A stretch of DNA of 64,000 bases. Source: Dokdonella koreensis DS-123. GTDB taxonomy: Bacteria > Pseudomonadota > Gammaproteobacteria > Xanthomonadales > Rhodanobacteraceae. Below are positions 49,427 to 55,438 of the stretch, in pieces. Position 1 is the first letter of the stretch. Every line of letters starts with the position of its first letter. The position numbers and the translations under genes were made by a program. The notes beneath the pieces were generated by a model. That model was not told the DNA's origin. It was given only the letters and a program-made list of their open reading frames with translations, and did no database searches. Location: NCBI RefSeq assembly GCF_001632775.1, contig NZ_CP015249.1, forward strand, positions 3,080,686 through 3,144,685, given 5' to 3'.

Positions 49427-50197
49427 TTGCCGCCACCGAGGCTCGTCATCGCTCCGCCACCGCCTGTGCCCCCTGCCGACGCCTCGGCCCCCACGCGACG
49501 CCCGGCACCGTTCACTGACGAGGACCTGCGCGCGCTGGTGCCGCGCGGCCCGTGGCAGCGCAGCCTGCGCTGGCAGAAGCCGGAGATCAATCGCCGCCGG
49601 CTGGCGCTGGGGATCGTGTTCGCGATCGTGATGACGCTGATCGAGCTGGCCGGCTTCGTGACCGGCATGCACCGCTCGATCCGCACCGCGCGGCAGGCCG
49701 ACCGCCCGATCGAGGTCAGCGTGATCGACCTGGCACCGGTGCAGCCGCTGCCGCCCGAACCGCAGCCGGCGGCGCTGCCGGTGCGCCCCAGCCGGATCGC
49801 GGTCACGCCGCCGCAGGCCCGCATCGAACCACCGCCGCCGGCCACCGCCGAGCCGCAGACGACGACGCAGGGGCGCATCGGTCCCGGTGCCGCCACCGGC
49901 CTGTTCAATGCCGACGGCTCGGTACGCCTGCCCGAGCGCACCGGCGCGCCGGCCACGCCGGCCAATCCGCAGCAGGCCGGCCAGCAGCGCTGGGCCGAGA
50001 TCCGGCAGCGCGGCGAGAATCCGCTGGACTGCCAGCGCACGCGCTTCGCCCGATCGTTCCGCCGCGACGAAACGGCCGGCGACGAGGTGGCGCGCAAGTA
50101 CCTGGCGTGGATCGGCCTGGCCGACGGCGCGGCGATCGAACGCAACGCCGCGCAGCGCGAAGGGCGCGCCAGCGACGGCTGCGACCCGGCGCGCTGA
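49427..50197 (+). CDS. Single-TM protein with Pro-rich linker, paralogue A
   Basis: About 256 residues from a TTG; a GTG at 49466 is an alternative and no ribosome binding site decides. Cytoplasmic Pro-rich N-terminus, one TM (LALGIVFAIVMTLIELAGFV), a Pro-rich periplasmic linker of about 60 residues, and a C-terminal domain with GLFNADGSVRLPE and a conserved-looking ENPLDCQRTRFARSFRRDE. The plan resembles TonB-like proteins but the TonB C-terminal domain is not visible. The next gene has the same plan. Confidence 0.72.
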   Translation: MPPPRLVIAPPPPVPPADASAPTRRPAPFTDEDLRALVPRGPWQRSLRWQKPEINRRRLALGIVFAIVMTLIELAGFVTGMHRSIRTARQADRPIEVSVIDLAPVQPLPPEPQPAALPVRPSRIAVTPPQARIEPPPPATAEPQTTTQGRIGPGAATGLFNADGSVRLPERTGAPATPANPQQAGQQRWAEIRQRGENPLDCQRTRFARSFRRDETAGDEVARKYLAWIGLADGAAIERNAAQREGRASDGCDPAR

Positions 50198-50230: not shown

Positions 50231-51103
50231 ATGTCCTCCCCCGCTGCCGCCGCCCTCGCCATCCACCGGCCGTTTCACCGCGCAGCCGATGCGGCCGACC
50301 GCCGGCGGCGCATCGCCGCCGCGACACTGGCCGCCGGCCTGCACCTGCTGCTGGCGATCGGCGCCTACCTGGCGGCGCGGCCGCACCCGGACGCGGCACC
50401 CACGCAGCGCGACCCGGACGACACGGTGATGCACTTGCGCCTGATCGACGACCCGGTCGCCGCGCCGGCCGCGGTGCCGATGCCGCTTCCGATGCCCGCG
50501 CCGCTGCAGCCGGTGCCCTACACCGGCACGCCAGCGCCGCCACCGGCCGCGACGGCGGCCGTGCCGGAGGCGGCCGCGACCGCGGCGGGTCCGCCGGCGC
50601 CGGTGCCGCGCCTGCGCGACCGCAACGGACGCGTGCAGCTGCCTGAAGGCGCCGCGACCGCGCCGGCCCGGACGTTCTCGAACCGCCCGTTGATGGACCC
50701 GCAGGCGGTCAATCCGATGGTCAACCGCGACATGCTGCCGTACACGCCGACGCGCTTCGAGAAGTACTGGGTCCCGCGCGACGAGACGCTCGGCGGCGAA
50801 CTGCTGCGCAACGCCATCGCCGAGCGCACGGTCGACCTGCCGCAGGGCTATCAGCTGCACTGCGCGTGGATGCTGATCCTCGGCGGCTGCACCTGGGGCA
50901 AGGCGCCGCACGCCACGATCGAGGAGATCAAGGCGATGCGCGCCGATCCGCCGATGCCGCGCCGTGCGCCGGATGCCGCGGCGCCGCCGCCGGCCACGCC
51001 CGGCGCCACGCCCGATCCGCCGGTATCGGAGGCGCCGCCGCGCCTGGACCTGCGGCTGCCACCACCCGCGCCACCACCCGCCGCACCGCCCGGCCGGCGA
51101 TAA
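50231..51103 (+). CDS. Single-TM protein with Pro-rich linker, paralogue B
   Basis: 290 residues. One TM (IAAATLAAGLHLLLAIGAYL), a Pro/Ala linker, the motif RDRNGRVQLPEGA that parallels ADGSVRLPER of its neighbour, then a domain with FEKYWVPRDETLGGELLRNAI and paired cysteines (LHCAWMLILGGCTWG) and a second Pro-rich tail. Family not recognised. The 33-bp gap to paralogue A suggests one transcript and a shared envelope complex. Confidence 0.75.
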   Translation: MSSPAAAALAIHRPFHRAADAADRRRRIAAATLAAGLHLLLAIGAYLAARPHPDAAPTQRDPDDTVMHLRLIDDPVAAPAAVPMPLPMPAPLQPVPYTGTPAPPPAATAAVPEAAATAAGPPAPVPRLRDRNGRVQLPEGAATAPARTFSNRPLMDPQAVNPMVNRDMLPYTPTRFEKYWVPRDETLGGELLRNAIAERTVDLPQGYQLHCAWMLILGGCTWGKAPHATIEEIKAMRADPPMPRRAPDAAAPPPATPGATPDPPVSEAPPRLDLRLPPPAPPPAAPPGRR

Positions 51104-51188
51104 TGGGCGCGCGTGCGGCGTCCGAAGCCGGCGTCCGGCGCGCCGTTGCGGGCGCGGCCGTCACCTACTGATCCAGGGAGTCCCTCCG

Positions 51189-52067
51189 ATGTCATCGTTC
51201 CTGCGCGCGATCGTCCTGATCGCCCTGCTGCTGCCGGCGTCCGGCCGTGCCGAAGAAGAAACCGGCGATGCCGAGCTGCAGGCGTTCCTCGCCGGCCTGA
51301 CCTTCAGGTCGGGCACGGTGGTGGTGCCCGAGGCACACGCCACGCTGGCGCTCAAGCCCGGCTATGCCTACCTGGATGCGACCGACGCCCAGGCCGTGCT
51401 CGAACAGCTCTGGGGCAACCCGCCCGATACGGACATCCTCGGCCTGATCCTGCCGCAGGGTCGCGACAGCCTGCTGGACGAGCGCAGCTGGGCGGTGGCC
51501 GTGACCTATTCCGACGACGGTCACGTCTCCGACGCCGAAGCGGCCACGATCGACTACGCGCAGATGCTCACGGACATGCAGGCCGCCACGCGCGAGGCCA
51601 ATCCGGCACGCCAGGAGAACGGCTACGACGCGGTCGAGCTGACCGGCTGGGCTGAATCACCGCGCTACGACGGCGCCAGCAACAAGCTGTACTGGGCCAA
51701 GGACCTGGTCTTCGGCGAGAGCCCGGACCACACGCTCAACTACGACATCCGCACGCTCGGCCGGCACGGCTACCTGAGCCTGAATGCGATCGCCCCGCTC
51801 GATGCGCTGCCGCAGGTGCGCGAAGGCATGCAGGAGCTGCTGACGATGGCCGAGTTCGACGCGGGCTACCGCTACGCCGACTACGACGCCGCCACCGACA
51901 AGGCCGCCGCCTACGGGATCGGCGCCCTGGTCGCCGGCACGCTGGCCGCCAAGACCGGACTGTTCGCCAAGATCGGCCTGGTGCTGCTGAAGTTCTGGAA
52001 GCTGATCGCGCTGGCCGTGGTCGCGTTCGGCAGCGCCCTGCCGAAGCTGTTCAAGCGCAAGCACTGA
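51189..52067 (+). CDS. DUF2167 membrane-anchored secreted protein
   Basis: 292 residues. AGGGAG precedes the ATG. Signal peptide (AIVLIALLLPASGRAE), a large domain with AVTYSDDGHVSDAEAATIDY, VELTGWAESPRYDGASNKLYW and HTLNYDIRTLGRHGYLSLNA, all features of DUF2167, and two C-terminal TMs (YGIGALVAGTLAAKTGLF; IGLVLLKFWKLIALAVVAFG) with a basic end. Function unknown. Confidence 0.88.
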   Translation: MSSFLRAIVLIALLLPASGRAEEETGDAELQAFLAGLTFRSGTVVVPEAHATLALKPGYAYLDATDAQAVLEQLWGNPPDTDILGLILPQGRDSLLDERSWAVAVTYSDDGHVSDAEAATIDYAQMLTDMQAATREANPARQENGYDAVELTGWAESPRYDGASNKLYWAKDLVFGESPDHTLNYDIRTLGRHGYLSLNAIAPLDALPQVREGMQELLTMAEFDAGYRYADYDAATDKAAAYGIGALVAGTLAAKTGLFAKIGLVLLKFWKLIALAVVAFGSALPKLFKRKH

Positions 52068-52101: not shown

Positions 52102-54381
52102 CTACAGCATCCGCATCAGCTCCGGCCGCAGCGGCAGCTTGCGGATGCGCACCGTGGTCGCGGCATGGATCGCGTTGGCCAGCGCGGGTGCCGCCGGTGC
52201 GGTGGCGGCATCGGCGGCCGGTGCCGGCGCCGCGTCGGACGGGACGATCACCACCTCGACCTGGCGCGGCGCCTGCGCGGCGGCCAGCAAGGCGTAGTCG
52301 CCGAAGTCCTTCTGCTGGACCTGGCCGTCCTTGACCGTGATCGCCTGGTCGAGCGCGCAGGAGATGCCATTGAGCATCGCCGCGGAGAGCTGCGACTCGG
52401 TGTTGAGCGGGTTGACCAGGCGGCCGATGTCGGCCACGCACAGCGCGCGATGGATGACCAGCGCGTCGCCCTCGACCGACACCTCCATGCCCTGCGCGAC
52501 GTAGCCGCCGTCGGTGAAGTGGCAGGCGATGCCCAGGCCATGGCCGTCGCTGCGGCGCACGCCCCAGCCCAGGCGCGTCGCGCAGGCCTGCAGCACGTGC
52601 GCCATGCGGCCGGTGTCGAACGTCGGGCCGCCGGCGCCGCGGTACGGCAACGTCCGCGGCTCGCCGAGCAGGGCCAGGCGCAGCGCGACCGCATCCTGCT
52701 TGGTGGCCACCGCGATCTCGTCGAGGAAGCACTGCTCGGCGAACGCGCTGAAGGTGTGCGCGCCGCCCGGGAAATCCCCGCGCGGCAGGCCGGCAGTGAC
52801 CGGCTGGAAGGTCTTCTCGAAATGCTCGACGAGTCCGGCCGGGAAGCTGTCCGGTTCCAGGCAGCCGGTCCAGATCGGCTGGCCGGCCAGGTGCCGGTCG
52901 CGATAGCTGCGCGGCGTCGCCGCGCAGCGGTGCGACCAGCCGGTGATGCGTGCGCGCCGATCGAGCGTCGCGGCCAGCTGGTGCACGCCGAGCGGACGAT
53001 AGAAGTCGTGGCGCAGGTCGTCCTGGCGGGTCCAGACCAGCTTGACCGGCTTGCCGGCCGCCTTGGCGATCAGCACCGCCTCGGCCACGAAGTCGTTGCG
53101 CAGGCGGCGCCCGTAGCTGCCGCCGGCGCGGGTCAGGCGGATCTCGACCGCGCTGCGCGGCAGGCCGGTCAGGCGGCTGACGATCACCGAGGCCTCGTCC
53201 GGATTCTCCAGCGAGGCGATCAGCAGCGCGCGGTCCTGCTTGAGCTCGATCAAGGCGCCGGGCGGCTCGTCCACGGCATGGGCGAGGAACGGCAGCTCGT
53301 AGCGCGCCTCGACCAGGCGCAGCGCCTGGCGGCGCGCGCGCACGAGGTCGCCGTCGCGGCGCAGCTCCAGCGCGCCCTCGCCGCTGTCGAGCGCGGCGTG
53401 CGCCTGGGCGGTGAGCGCGGCGCTCGATTCCTCGGCCCACGGGCCGCGTTTCCAGGTCACCGCCAGGCGCTCGCGGCCTTGCAGCGCCGCCCAGGTCGAG
53501 TCGGCCAGCACGGCCACGCCGGCGGCCTGGTGGCCGTCGAGCGGCTCGTCGGCCGGCGGTCCCTCGAAGGTGATGACCTCGCGCACGCCGGCGACCTTGC
53601 GGGCCGCCGTGTCGTCGACCTGGTCGATGGCGCCGTCGCGGTACGGGCAGCGCAGCACCACCGCGAACAGCGCGCCGGCGCGATAGGCGTCGCTGCCGTA
53701 GCGCGTGCGGCCGGTGACCAGGTCCTGCGCATCGACGATGCGCGTGGGCCGGCCGATGATGCCGAAGCGGTCGGCCGGCTTGAGCGGCACCGGATCGGCC
53801 GGCGGCGTCAGCGTGGCCGCGCTGCGCGCCAGCGCCCCGTAGCTCAGGCGCCGGCCGTCCGGTGCGATCACCTGCCCCGACGCGGTGCGCAGCCCGTCCG
53901 CCGGCAGCTTCCACTCCTCGGCAGCGGCGGCTACCAGCAGCCAGCGCGCGGTGGCGCCGGCCTGGCGCAGGTCGGTCCGTTCCTCGTCGACACGGCCGGG
54001 CTCGGCGCCGCCCTGCCGGCCGTAGCGGTTCGACGCGTCCGCGCCGGTGCCGCCGTAGCCATACGGCAGCTGCAGCACGCGCACCTGCTGCCAGTCCACG
54101 TCCAGTTCCTCGGCGATCAGCATCGGCAGCGAGGTGGTCACGCCCTGGCCGACGTCGCAGCCGGACGCACCGATCACCACGCGGTTGTCGCGCTCGATGC
54201 GCACGAAGGGCCCGAGCGCGGTCAGGTCGTCGCCGAGCAGCTCGGTCGGGAAATCCTCGGGGAACTGCGCCGCCTGCGCCGACCGGAAACCGACCAGCAG
54301 GGCGCCGCCGACGCCGAGCGCCACGCCGAGGAAGCGCCGCCGCGAAGGATCGGCCGTCTTCGAACGATCGGACGCGCTCAT
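52102..54381 (-). CDS. Molybdenum hydroxylase large-subunit-like protein (IorB family), active-site Glu lost
   Basis: 759 residues. Tat signal (SRRRFLGVALGVGGALLVG), then features of the isoquinoline 1-oxidoreductase beta family: SGCDVGQGVTTSLPMLIAEELDVDW, GGSYGRRLRNDFVAEA and the C-terminal PALANAIHAAT-RIRKLP. The segment normally GVGEPGTPP, with the universal catalytic Glu, reads AADAATAP here (about 722-729). The usual GGGFGRR is GGSYGRR. Hydroxylation as in the family therefore looks unlikely. Its ATG overlaps the small-subunit stop. Confidence 0.85.
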   Translation of the reverse strand: MSASDRSKTADPSRRRFLGVALGVGGALLVGFRSAQAAQFPEDFPTELLGDDLTALGPFVRIERDNRVVIGASGCDVGQGVTTSLPMLIAEELDVDWQQVRVLQLPYGYGGTGADASNRYGRQGGAEPGRVDEERTDLRQAGATARWLLVAAAAEEWKLPADGLRTASGQVIAPDGRRLSYGALARSAATLTPPADPVPLKPADRFGIIGRPTRIVDAQDLVTGRTRYGSDAYRAGALFAVVLRCPYRDGAIDQVDDTAARKVAGVREVITFEGPPADEPLDGHQAAGVAVLADSTWAALQGRERLAVTWKRGPWAEESSAALTAQAHAALDSGEGALELRRDGDLVRARRQALRLVEARYELPFLAHAVDEPPGALIELKQDRALLIASLENPDEASVIVSRLTGLPRSAVEIRLTRAGGSYGRRLRNDFVAEAVLIAKAAGKPVKLVWTRQDDLRHDFYRPLGVHQLAATLDRRARITGWSHRCAATPRSYRDRHLAGQPIWTGCLEPDSFPAGLVEHFEKTFQPVTAGLPRGDFPGGAHTFSAFAEQCFLDEIAVATKQDAVALRLALLGEPRTLPYRGAGGPTFDTGRMAHVLQACATRLGWGVRRSDGHGLGIACHFTDGGYVAQGMEVSVEGDALVIHRALCVADIGRLVNPLNTESQLSAAMLNGISCALDQAITVKDGQVQQKDFGDYALLAAAQAPRQVEVVIVPSDAAPAPAADAATAPAAPALANAIHAATTVRIRKLPLRPELMRML

Positions 54382-54914
54382 GCGTCGGCCGCCCGCATCA
54401 GCTCGGCCGCACGCAGGATCGCCTTGCGCATCCGCGGATAGGAGCCGTCGCGGCACAGCACCGCGATCCGCGCGAGGTCCTCCTCGCCGGGGCGATGGTT
54501 GCGCATCAGCAGCCCCACCGCGGCCATGATCGCGGCCGGCTGCGCATAGCCGGTCGGCGAGACGTCCTCCTCGATCCAGGCCTGCTGGACCGGGTGCAGC
54601 GCACCTTCCTGGAGGCCCTCGATCGTCACCACGCGCTTGCCGGCCAGCTGCTTCATCGGCGTGCGGCAGGCGCGCACGGCGCGGCCTTCCACCAGCAGCG
54701 TGCAGATGCCACCGCAGTCGCCGCCGTCACCACAGCCGCCGGCCTTGGTGCCGGTCAGGCGCAGCACGTCGCGCAGGAACCAGACCAGCGGCATCTCCGG
54801 GTCGCCGCCGTGGAAGTACGGCTTGCCGTTGACGGTGAGCGGGATGGCATCGGCGTCGATCGGCTTGATCTGCCGATCGCGGGCGTTGGCGAGGCGTTGG
54901 GTGGTGTCCTGCAT
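54378..54914 (-). CDS. [2Fe-2S] small-subunit-like protein (IorA family), one cluster lost
   Basis: 178 residues. The plant-type ferredoxin domain keeps four cysteines (61, 67, 71, 83) but in the loop KAGGCGDGGDCGGICT the spacing is C-x5-C-x3-C, against C-x4-C-x2-C in the family. In the helical domain the motif CGYCQPG has become TGYAQPA (121-127) and CRCGTY has become CRDGSY (154-159), so three of four ligands of the cofactor-proximal cluster are gone. The rest (HPVQQAWIEE, YPRMRKAI) aligns well. Co-translated with the large subunit. Confidence 0.88.
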   Translation of the reverse strand: MQDTTQRLANARDRQIKPIDADAIPLTVNGKPYFHGGDPEMPLVWFLRDVLRLTGTKAGGCGDGGDCGGICTLLVEGRAVRACRTPMKQLAGKRVVTIEGLQEGALHPVQQAWIEEDVSPTGYAQPAAIMAAVGLLMRNHRPGEEDLARIAVLCRDGSYPRMRKAILRAAELMRAADA

Positions 54915-55050
54915 GCCGGGTCCACAGGTGCGCGCGAAACGCCGATTGTCGCATCGGCGCGGGGTTCCGCCATAGTCGCGCGCCGGCGGACGGCGCCGCA
55001 ATGCAGGCAGAACGAACCGCGGCATCCGGCGCGCGCGCCGGCCCTGCCGG

Positions 55051-55438
55051 CGGTCGAGGCCCGGAGGGCATGCGCGAGCCTGGCTCGCGTCGCTCGACCG
55101 CGAAAGCAGCAGGAGACCGCTTTCACGGCATCGGCCCACAGGCCGCCGAGACGCGGGCTGCGGTGCGGGCCATGGATGGCCCGCTCGGGCCGCGAACGCG
55201 CAGCGGTCGAGGCCCGGAGGGCGTACGCGAGCTTGGCTTGCGTCGCTCGATCAGGAAAGCGGCAGGAAGCCGCTTTCACGGCATCGGCCCGCAGGCAGCC
55301 GAGACGCGGGCTGCGGTGCGGGCCATGGATGGCCCGCTCGGGCCGCGAACGCGCAGCGGTCGAGGCCCGGAGGGGGTACGCGAGCTGCGCTCGCGTCGCT
55401 CGACCGGGGAAGCGGCAGGAGGCCGCTTTCGCGGCATC
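55051..55438. repeat. 153-bp tandem repeat, about 2.5 copies
   Basis: Units start at 55051, 55204 and 55357 (CGGTCGAGGCCCGGAGGG), period exactly 153. Each unit holds a GCGAGC/GCTCGC-type hairpin and a GAAAGCGGC/GCCGCTTTC-type hairpin (perfect nine-pair stem in copy 2 at 55255-55277); complete units also hold GCGGGCCAT/ATGGCCCGC. It fills most of the gap between the IorA-like start and the rsmE stop; 54915-55050 holds nothing else clear. Open frames cross it on both strands because 153 is a multiple of three; I regard them as spurious. Confidence 0.85.

Follow-up and report, generated by a model that had tools for sequence, protein, structure and literature searches.

The closest described counterparts of the gene pair treated here, which lies in a 64,000-nucleotide stretch of Dokdonella koreensis DS-123 (contig NZ_CP015249.1, positions 3,080,686 to 3,144,685; hereafter the window), are molybdenum hydroxylases of the xanthine oxidase family. 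Within that family we take isoquinoline 1-oxidoreductase, IorAB, to be the class of the pair, and we presume AldFGH to be the gene name of 8gy3, the membrane-bound aldehyde dehydrogenase of Gluconobacter oxydans. We consider it likely that the bacterial family of D. koreensis has repeatedly turned a hydroxylase of this IorAB/AldFGH type, exported by the twin-arginine (Tat) route, into a non-hydroxylating protein able to do without the molybdenum cofactor (Moco), with the window pair as a separate branch. The active-site glutamate (Glu) of such enzymes is described as the base of hydroxylation in the accessible part of PMC3624778, and mouse AOX1 carrying E1265Q, at the corresponding Glu, is inactive according to the accessible part of PMC2671166. 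Peng et al. 2018 counted 305 bacteria with molybdoenzyme homologues and no complete Moco pathway (Table 2; PMC6147048); for these orphan molybdoproteins the available text names Mo-independent forms as one option, and that text offers no sequence feature by which to mark them. Independence from molybdenum has also been claimed for Salmonella MopB proteins in the accessible text of a preprint (PMC12636705). Our search of the literature by title or abstract start, which did not cover most subscription journals, found no description of the present pair.

The pair consists of an IorA/CoxS-like small subunit (P0001, 178 amino acids; window positions 54378..54914, minus strand) and an IorB/AldH-like large subunit (P0002, 759 amino acids; 52102..54381, minus strand). 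Both open frames are intact, as the initial annotation had stated, and the stop of the first gene shares four bases (ATGA) with the start of the second. Pfam searches assign Fer2_2 to the small subunit (5.6e-17) and MoCoBD_1 and MoCoBD_2 to the large one above cut-off, with Ald_Xan_dh_C remaining below it. Among solved structures, 8gy3 comes closest to the large subunit by sequence, while the small subunit is nearest to 5y6q and then to 8gy3. The AlphaFold (AF2) models have a mean pLDDT of 86.8 for P0001 and of 84.1 for P0002 (pTM 0.87), and their top matches in Foldseek are chains of the same structure, 8gy3_B for the small subunit (TM 0.77/0.88) and 8gy3_C for the large one (E 9.8e-58, TM 0.81/0.84). 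The fold predicted for both subunits is thus that of the Mo hydroxylase (xanthine oxidase) family. The Tat signal that had been noted in the large subunit is found as the twin-arginine motif RRRFL at residues 14-18 (54328..54342, minus strand); its general form RRx[FLYM] occurs in 122 of 123 large subunits, and the sole miss is a frame-broken fragment in genome G008. With a small Fe-S gene directly before a Tat-motif large gene, the pair is by sequence and gene order of the IorAB/AldFGH type.

A search with P0001 gives a match in 227 of the 233 genomes of the bacterial family, paralogues being included among these matches. For P0002, a near-full-length relative at an identity of at least 44% is present in 29 of 30 sampled genomes from 26 genera, the window genome included and G091 being the exception; identities to the 28 others range from 44 to 65% over nearly the full length. 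On a tree of 88 rows, built by a quick search after removal of the motif columns and with SH-aLRT support only, the window row falls within a 22-row orthologue group (support 97). By these identities and this placement, the window pair is orthologous to the family group of which Moco-less genomes also retain members.

Our survey covered the small subunit in 114 family genomes and, for the large subunit, the part around the active site in 109. The five genomes outside the 109 are G020, where the gene is frame-broken, G041, G127 and G144, where it runs into contig ends, and G030, whose locus L126 was set aside and reads DPA-LASA, again without Glu. Included in the 109 are the frame-broken fragment of G008 and the locus of G084, which a contig end truncates; both sequences still include the Glu segment. 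The catalytic Glu is missing in 84 of the 109 genomes: its position holds Phe in 51, Glu in 25, Asp in 11, Val in 8, a gap in 4 and Ala, Ile, Thr, Asn, His, Pro or Gly in 10. Because 30 loci were chosen for their similarity to a GASFLAMP protein, the counts of 84 and of 51 over-represent the clade that carries this motif. Outside the family, all of the 14 top-scoring genomes (249 searched across the order) keep Glu together with eight cluster cysteines (Cys), which makes the canonical state the ancestral one. On the 88-row tree, at least 8 changes of the Glu state are counted.

A contig scan yielded 55 distant relatives, and GxGE is present in 47 of the 48 whose C-terminal part was examined. 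The exception, L081, is a distant IorB relative in an uncultured Rhodospirillales metagenome-assembled genome; it reads GVSDAG, a possible independent loss of Glu. Within the family, the five loci L126, L129, L132, L133 and L135 of genus g4 have rewritten the Glu segment separately, as DPA-(L/W/F)A, and their Arg loop is altered by a deletion; some of the genomes concerned have Moco genes and others do not.

The two iron-sulfur clusters of the small subunit have fared differently across the family. All four Cys of the N-terminal, ferredoxin-like (distal) cluster are gone in 51 of 114 genomes, and the rows concerned form one 29-row clade on the tree, with GASFLAMP in 27, GASFIAMP in one and GASFLGMP in one. 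The replacement motifs of this clade are of the GADLVLV type at the cluster and GASFLAMP at the Glu segment. The Moco-proximal cluster retains its full set of CGYC/CRC Cys in 112 of 114 genomes, the two exceptions being the window genome (G000) and G020, a relative from the same genus.

The retention of the pair can be compared with the presence of the genes that make Moco. No match to MoaA (PF06463) was obtained for 57 of the 233 family genomes; 37 of these were identified by subtracting the matched genomes from the full set. Of the 57, 52 also lack MoeA_N and 55 lack MoaC, and 51 have no match to any of the three. The exceptions among the 57 (G006, G012, G132, G147, G221 and G230) are drafts of 530, 450, 190, 770, 600 and 830 contigs, respectively, and identical searches found MoeA_N and MoaC in the controls G000, G020, G146, G027 and G064. 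Seven of the 51 Moco-less genomes are listed as a single contig (G017, G079, G092, G095, G186, G192 and G206). The sulfite-oxidase-type Mo domain PF00174 is above cut-off in none of the 40 Moco-less genomes that are at least 90% complete (the match in G153, E 7e-4, falls short of it) and in five of six Moco-making controls, G027 being the miss. These 40 genomes contain one or two MoCoBD_2 stretches, apart from G143 with three, and a single protein suffices to account for one or two.

Of the 51 Moco-less genomes, 50 have a small-subunit match and one, G131, has none. The pair itself was examined in 31; the other 20 are represented by P0001 search scores alone, which possibly stem from paralogues. 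Glu is present in 0 of the 31, while CGYC/CRC and RRx[FLYM] are present in all 31, and the N-terminal cluster retains every one of its Cys in 8 and none of them in 23. Among the 25 Glu-keeping genomes, MoaA is found in all but G147, which has MoaC. We estimated the ratio of nonsynonymous to synonymous substitution (omega) between Moco-less species by pairwise NG86, leaving out the L126 rows, in which an upstream stop shifted the codons. Among the pairs listed, omega ranges from 0.09 to 0.55 for the small subunit and from 0.07 to 0.52 for the large one, with small/large values of 0.19/0.17 for L185/L186, 0.09/0.07 for L191/L192 and 0.13/0.17 for L161/L164. Present, Glu-less and under purifying selection where MoaA, MoeA and MoaC have no match, the pair is thus retained without Moco genes. 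When Moco loss was set against Glu loss in independent pairs, 11 of 12 pairs were identical in Glu state.

A possible partner of the retained protein is encoded next to it. Of 92 family loci, 60 have a gene for an amino-acid permease (AA_permease_2) upstream of the pair and in the same orientation, at a distance of up to 300 bases in 53 of them and of 600-1500 bases in the other 7. It accompanies the pair in 27 of the 29 rows that make up the clade without the N-terminal cluster, and it was not found at the 14 outgroup loci within the fetched flanks, some of which are short.

The window copy is peculiar, on the evidence of its sequence, in which cluster was lost. In the small subunit, TGYA replaces CGYC at residues 121-124 (54543..54554, minus strand) and CRD replaces CRC at residues 154-156 (54447..54455, minus strand), which leaves the Moco-proximal [2Fe-2S] cluster with one of its four ligands, C154. 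The four-Cys proximal site (CGYC...CRC) of the family is accordingly absent from the translated small subunit. The distal cluster loop, C61-x5-C67-x3-C71 (54702..54734, minus strand), contains two one-residue insertions; all four Cys (C61, C67, C71 and C83) are present, with the spacing C-x5-C-x3-C against C-x4-C-x2-C in the orthologues. These changes in both cluster loops had been described in the initial annotation and are all seen in the window sequence, and the altered spacing recurs in G020. In the large subunit, the active-site segment at residues 716-728 (52198..52236, minus strand) has been rewritten. The annotation had read GxGEP as AADAATAP with Glu lost; the Glu is indeed gone, and the alignment refines the reading by placing Asp724 (52210-52212), within PAADAATAP, at the catalytic Glu column. 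The large subunit, as translated, thus lacks the active-site Glu in GxGE, and the alignment places neither Glu nor the Cys ligands elsewhere, Asp724 standing where the Glu would be. The structure alignments drew on the contig scan, with 42 of its 47 large and 47 of its 50 small proteins.

Further conserved positions are changed as well. By alignment, GGSYG replaces GGGFG in a pocket loop at residues 420-424 (53110..53124, minus strand), and P538 (52768..52770, minus strand) replaces a conserved Arg in a loop that reads GDFPGGAH for GWWRAPLH, a change common to G020. The large subunit additionally carries GGS to AEP at 126-128, E453Q, G667A, G721P and G723A, next to the F423Y and R538P of these two loops, and it retains the GQG and H-A-x-x-E-P-P pocket residues. 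When positions with at least 93% agreement among the distant relatives of the contig scan (42 large, 47 small) are taken as conserved, the window copy departs at 17 of 73 positions in the large and 12 of 48 in the small subunit. The in-family Glu-keeping orthologues L036, L038, L040 and L144 depart at 5-10 and 0-1 positions, respectively, a background of ordinary relatives that the window copy exceeds. Eight Glu-less orthologues from Moco-less genomes (L129, L130, L160, L161, L166, L179, L185 and L192) depart at 11-17 and 6-18, and by count the window copy is therefore not the most changed.

These data are probably best explained by a repeated departure from hydroxylase chemistry. The family ancestor possessed a canonical Tat-motif molybdenum hydroxylase of the IorAB/AldFGH type, whose catalytic Glu was then lost several times while the two-subunit architecture and the predicted fold were kept. 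Species in which no Moco genes are detected maintain the pair by purifying selection, in a job that is presumably non-hydroxylating. We speculate that the former substrate cavity binds a small ligand, that in most species one [2Fe-2S] cluster remains as a structural or redox element, and that in many species the pair serves the adjacent amino-acid permease. In the window lineage, the proximal cluster was lost and several pocket loops were rewritten. Since the Moco-adjacent cluster and several cavity loops are gone, the window protein is probably Moco-free, judging by its residues, and holds at most the distal cluster. The chances appear evenly balanced for a more far-reaching version, in which the whole family converted the Mo hydroxylase to a Moco-free exported protein under selection, with a large clade of fixed motifs tied to the permease and with the window lineage giving up the opposite cluster.

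Several observations weigh against conversion to a Moco-independent protein, for the family or for the window pair. Constraint is weaker in some comparisons of Moco-less species (omega 0.52/0.52 for L129/L130 and 0.55/0.49 for L130/L133), and a Glu-keeping copy, that of G008, has a frame-broken large gene. The permease gene was not found beside the pair in the window or in 8 other genomes of its genus, and the window type of cluster loss occurs in just one other genome. Moreover, the window genome has MoaA, MoeA and MoaC as well as three canonical paralogues, so that the window pair could still be Moco-loaded. Such a pair might have remained a molybdoenzyme of altered chemistry, with Asp724 as the base and electrons leaving via the distal cluster or directly to the acceptor. 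The retained GQG and H-A-x-x-E-P-P residues fit this picture, and Asp724 could act as a weak base, Asp recurring at this position in 11 of 109 genomes. However, the Moco-proximal cluster has lost three of its four ligands, R538 and the 126-128 loop are changed, and three of the 11 Asp forms occur in genomes without Moco genes. We regard an altered molybdoenzyme in the window as unlikely.

A second explanation is that the window pair is decaying, its function lost and its frames still unbroken. No end branch of the 88-row tree is longer than that of the window row (0.51), which would allow for a relaxed phase before the split from G020, and the many changed conserved positions counted above point in the same direction. 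Moreover, the small and large genes of G020 each carry one frame break. Among the eight of nine other same-genus genomes examined (G025 was left out), G020 is the one with window-type cluster loss and loops: it carries TGYV, CRD, C-x5-C-x3-C, GGSYG, GDFPGGAH and PAYDAA. Matching derived motifs in a second genome make a sequencing artefact in the window unlikely, and the retention of shared derived loops in the two species speaks against decay. Between the window and G020, NG86 omega is 0.281 for the small subunit (95% bootstrap 0.150-0.470) and 0.288 for the large one (0.227-0.358), similar to the values of 0.326 for rsmE and 0.266 for bioA, two comparison genes identified by NCBIfam models above cut-off; this similarity again argues against decay. 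As to the frame breaks, bioA and a response-regulator gene are likewise split between frames in the G020 assembly (L035, L111), which probably has indel errors, and the breaks in the pair are probably assembly errors as well. We therefore did not accept them as proof of decay, a reading that looks quite improbable on balance. The initial annotation had preferred a repurposed complex to a decaying one, and this view is supported by the omega of 0.28-0.29, the family-wide loss of Glu and the retention without Moco genes. Close homologues are canonical or partly so, as a decaying copy might lead one to expect, but selection since the G020 split has not been relaxed.

That the Moco-less genomes merely appear so, owing to assembly gaps or to an unknown Moco route, and that all orthologues are molybdoenzymes is very improbable: many of the 51 genomes are drafts, and new Moco components or missing sequence are raised in the accessible text of Peng et al. 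2018 (PMC6147048), but three gene families are missing jointly, also in the seven single-contig genomes, the PF00174 Mo domain is missing with them, and Glu is absent from all 31 pairs examined.

In the window, the pair has its own surroundings. The gene adjoining it upstream is rsmE, and a permease was rejected as partner of the window pair: none is adjacent, and the best homologue in G000 is unlinked and 36% identical (the linked one in G027 reaches 58%). Between rsmE and the small-subunit gene lies a tandem array (55050-55438) of a 153-base unit in 2.5 copies with 91% matches, which contains two copies of GGGCCATGGATGGCCCG and aligns poorly with G020. Downstream and convergent with the pair, a DUF2167 protein (51183-52067, plus strand; 1.6e-85) follows directly and stands beside the pair in the window alone among the 92 loci compared. 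Two proline-rich proteins without a Pfam match (49427-50197 and 50231-51103, plus strand) are also convergent with the pair, and their homologues occur near it in 19 and 10 of the 92 family loci.

If the more far-reaching version holds, with conversion across the whole family, nature would offer here a series of many intermediate stages between an enzyme and a non-enzyme. In annotation, the Glu should be checked before such genes are named xanthine or aldehyde dehydrogenases. The structure 8gy3 is among the best matches of the window pair, ranking first by fold for both subunits and, by sequence, first for the large and second for the small one; in the alignments, however, its chains keep the cluster Cys and GLGEP. 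With IorAB the window pair shares the adjoining small gene and an MGQG-type loop near the N-terminus of the large subunit, and it differs in the catalytic Glu, the proximal cluster and several pocket residues. Salmonella MopB, as portrayed in the accessible part of the preprint, would be a comparable departure of a molybdoenzyme-family protein from Mo, but MopB belongs to another superfamily and has a [4Fe-4S] cluster (PMC12636705). The orphan molybdoproteins, as far as the available text of Peng et al. 2018 describes them, are likewise homologues of molybdoenzymes whose genomes do not encode the full Moco pathway (PMC6147048); here, in contrast, none of the 31 pairs examined has the Glu, and a tree gives the direction of the change. 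To the question raised there the family contributes a sequence marker, this polarised tree and a large number of intact pairs from Moco-less species, and with these the independence of such proteins from molybdenum becomes directly testable.

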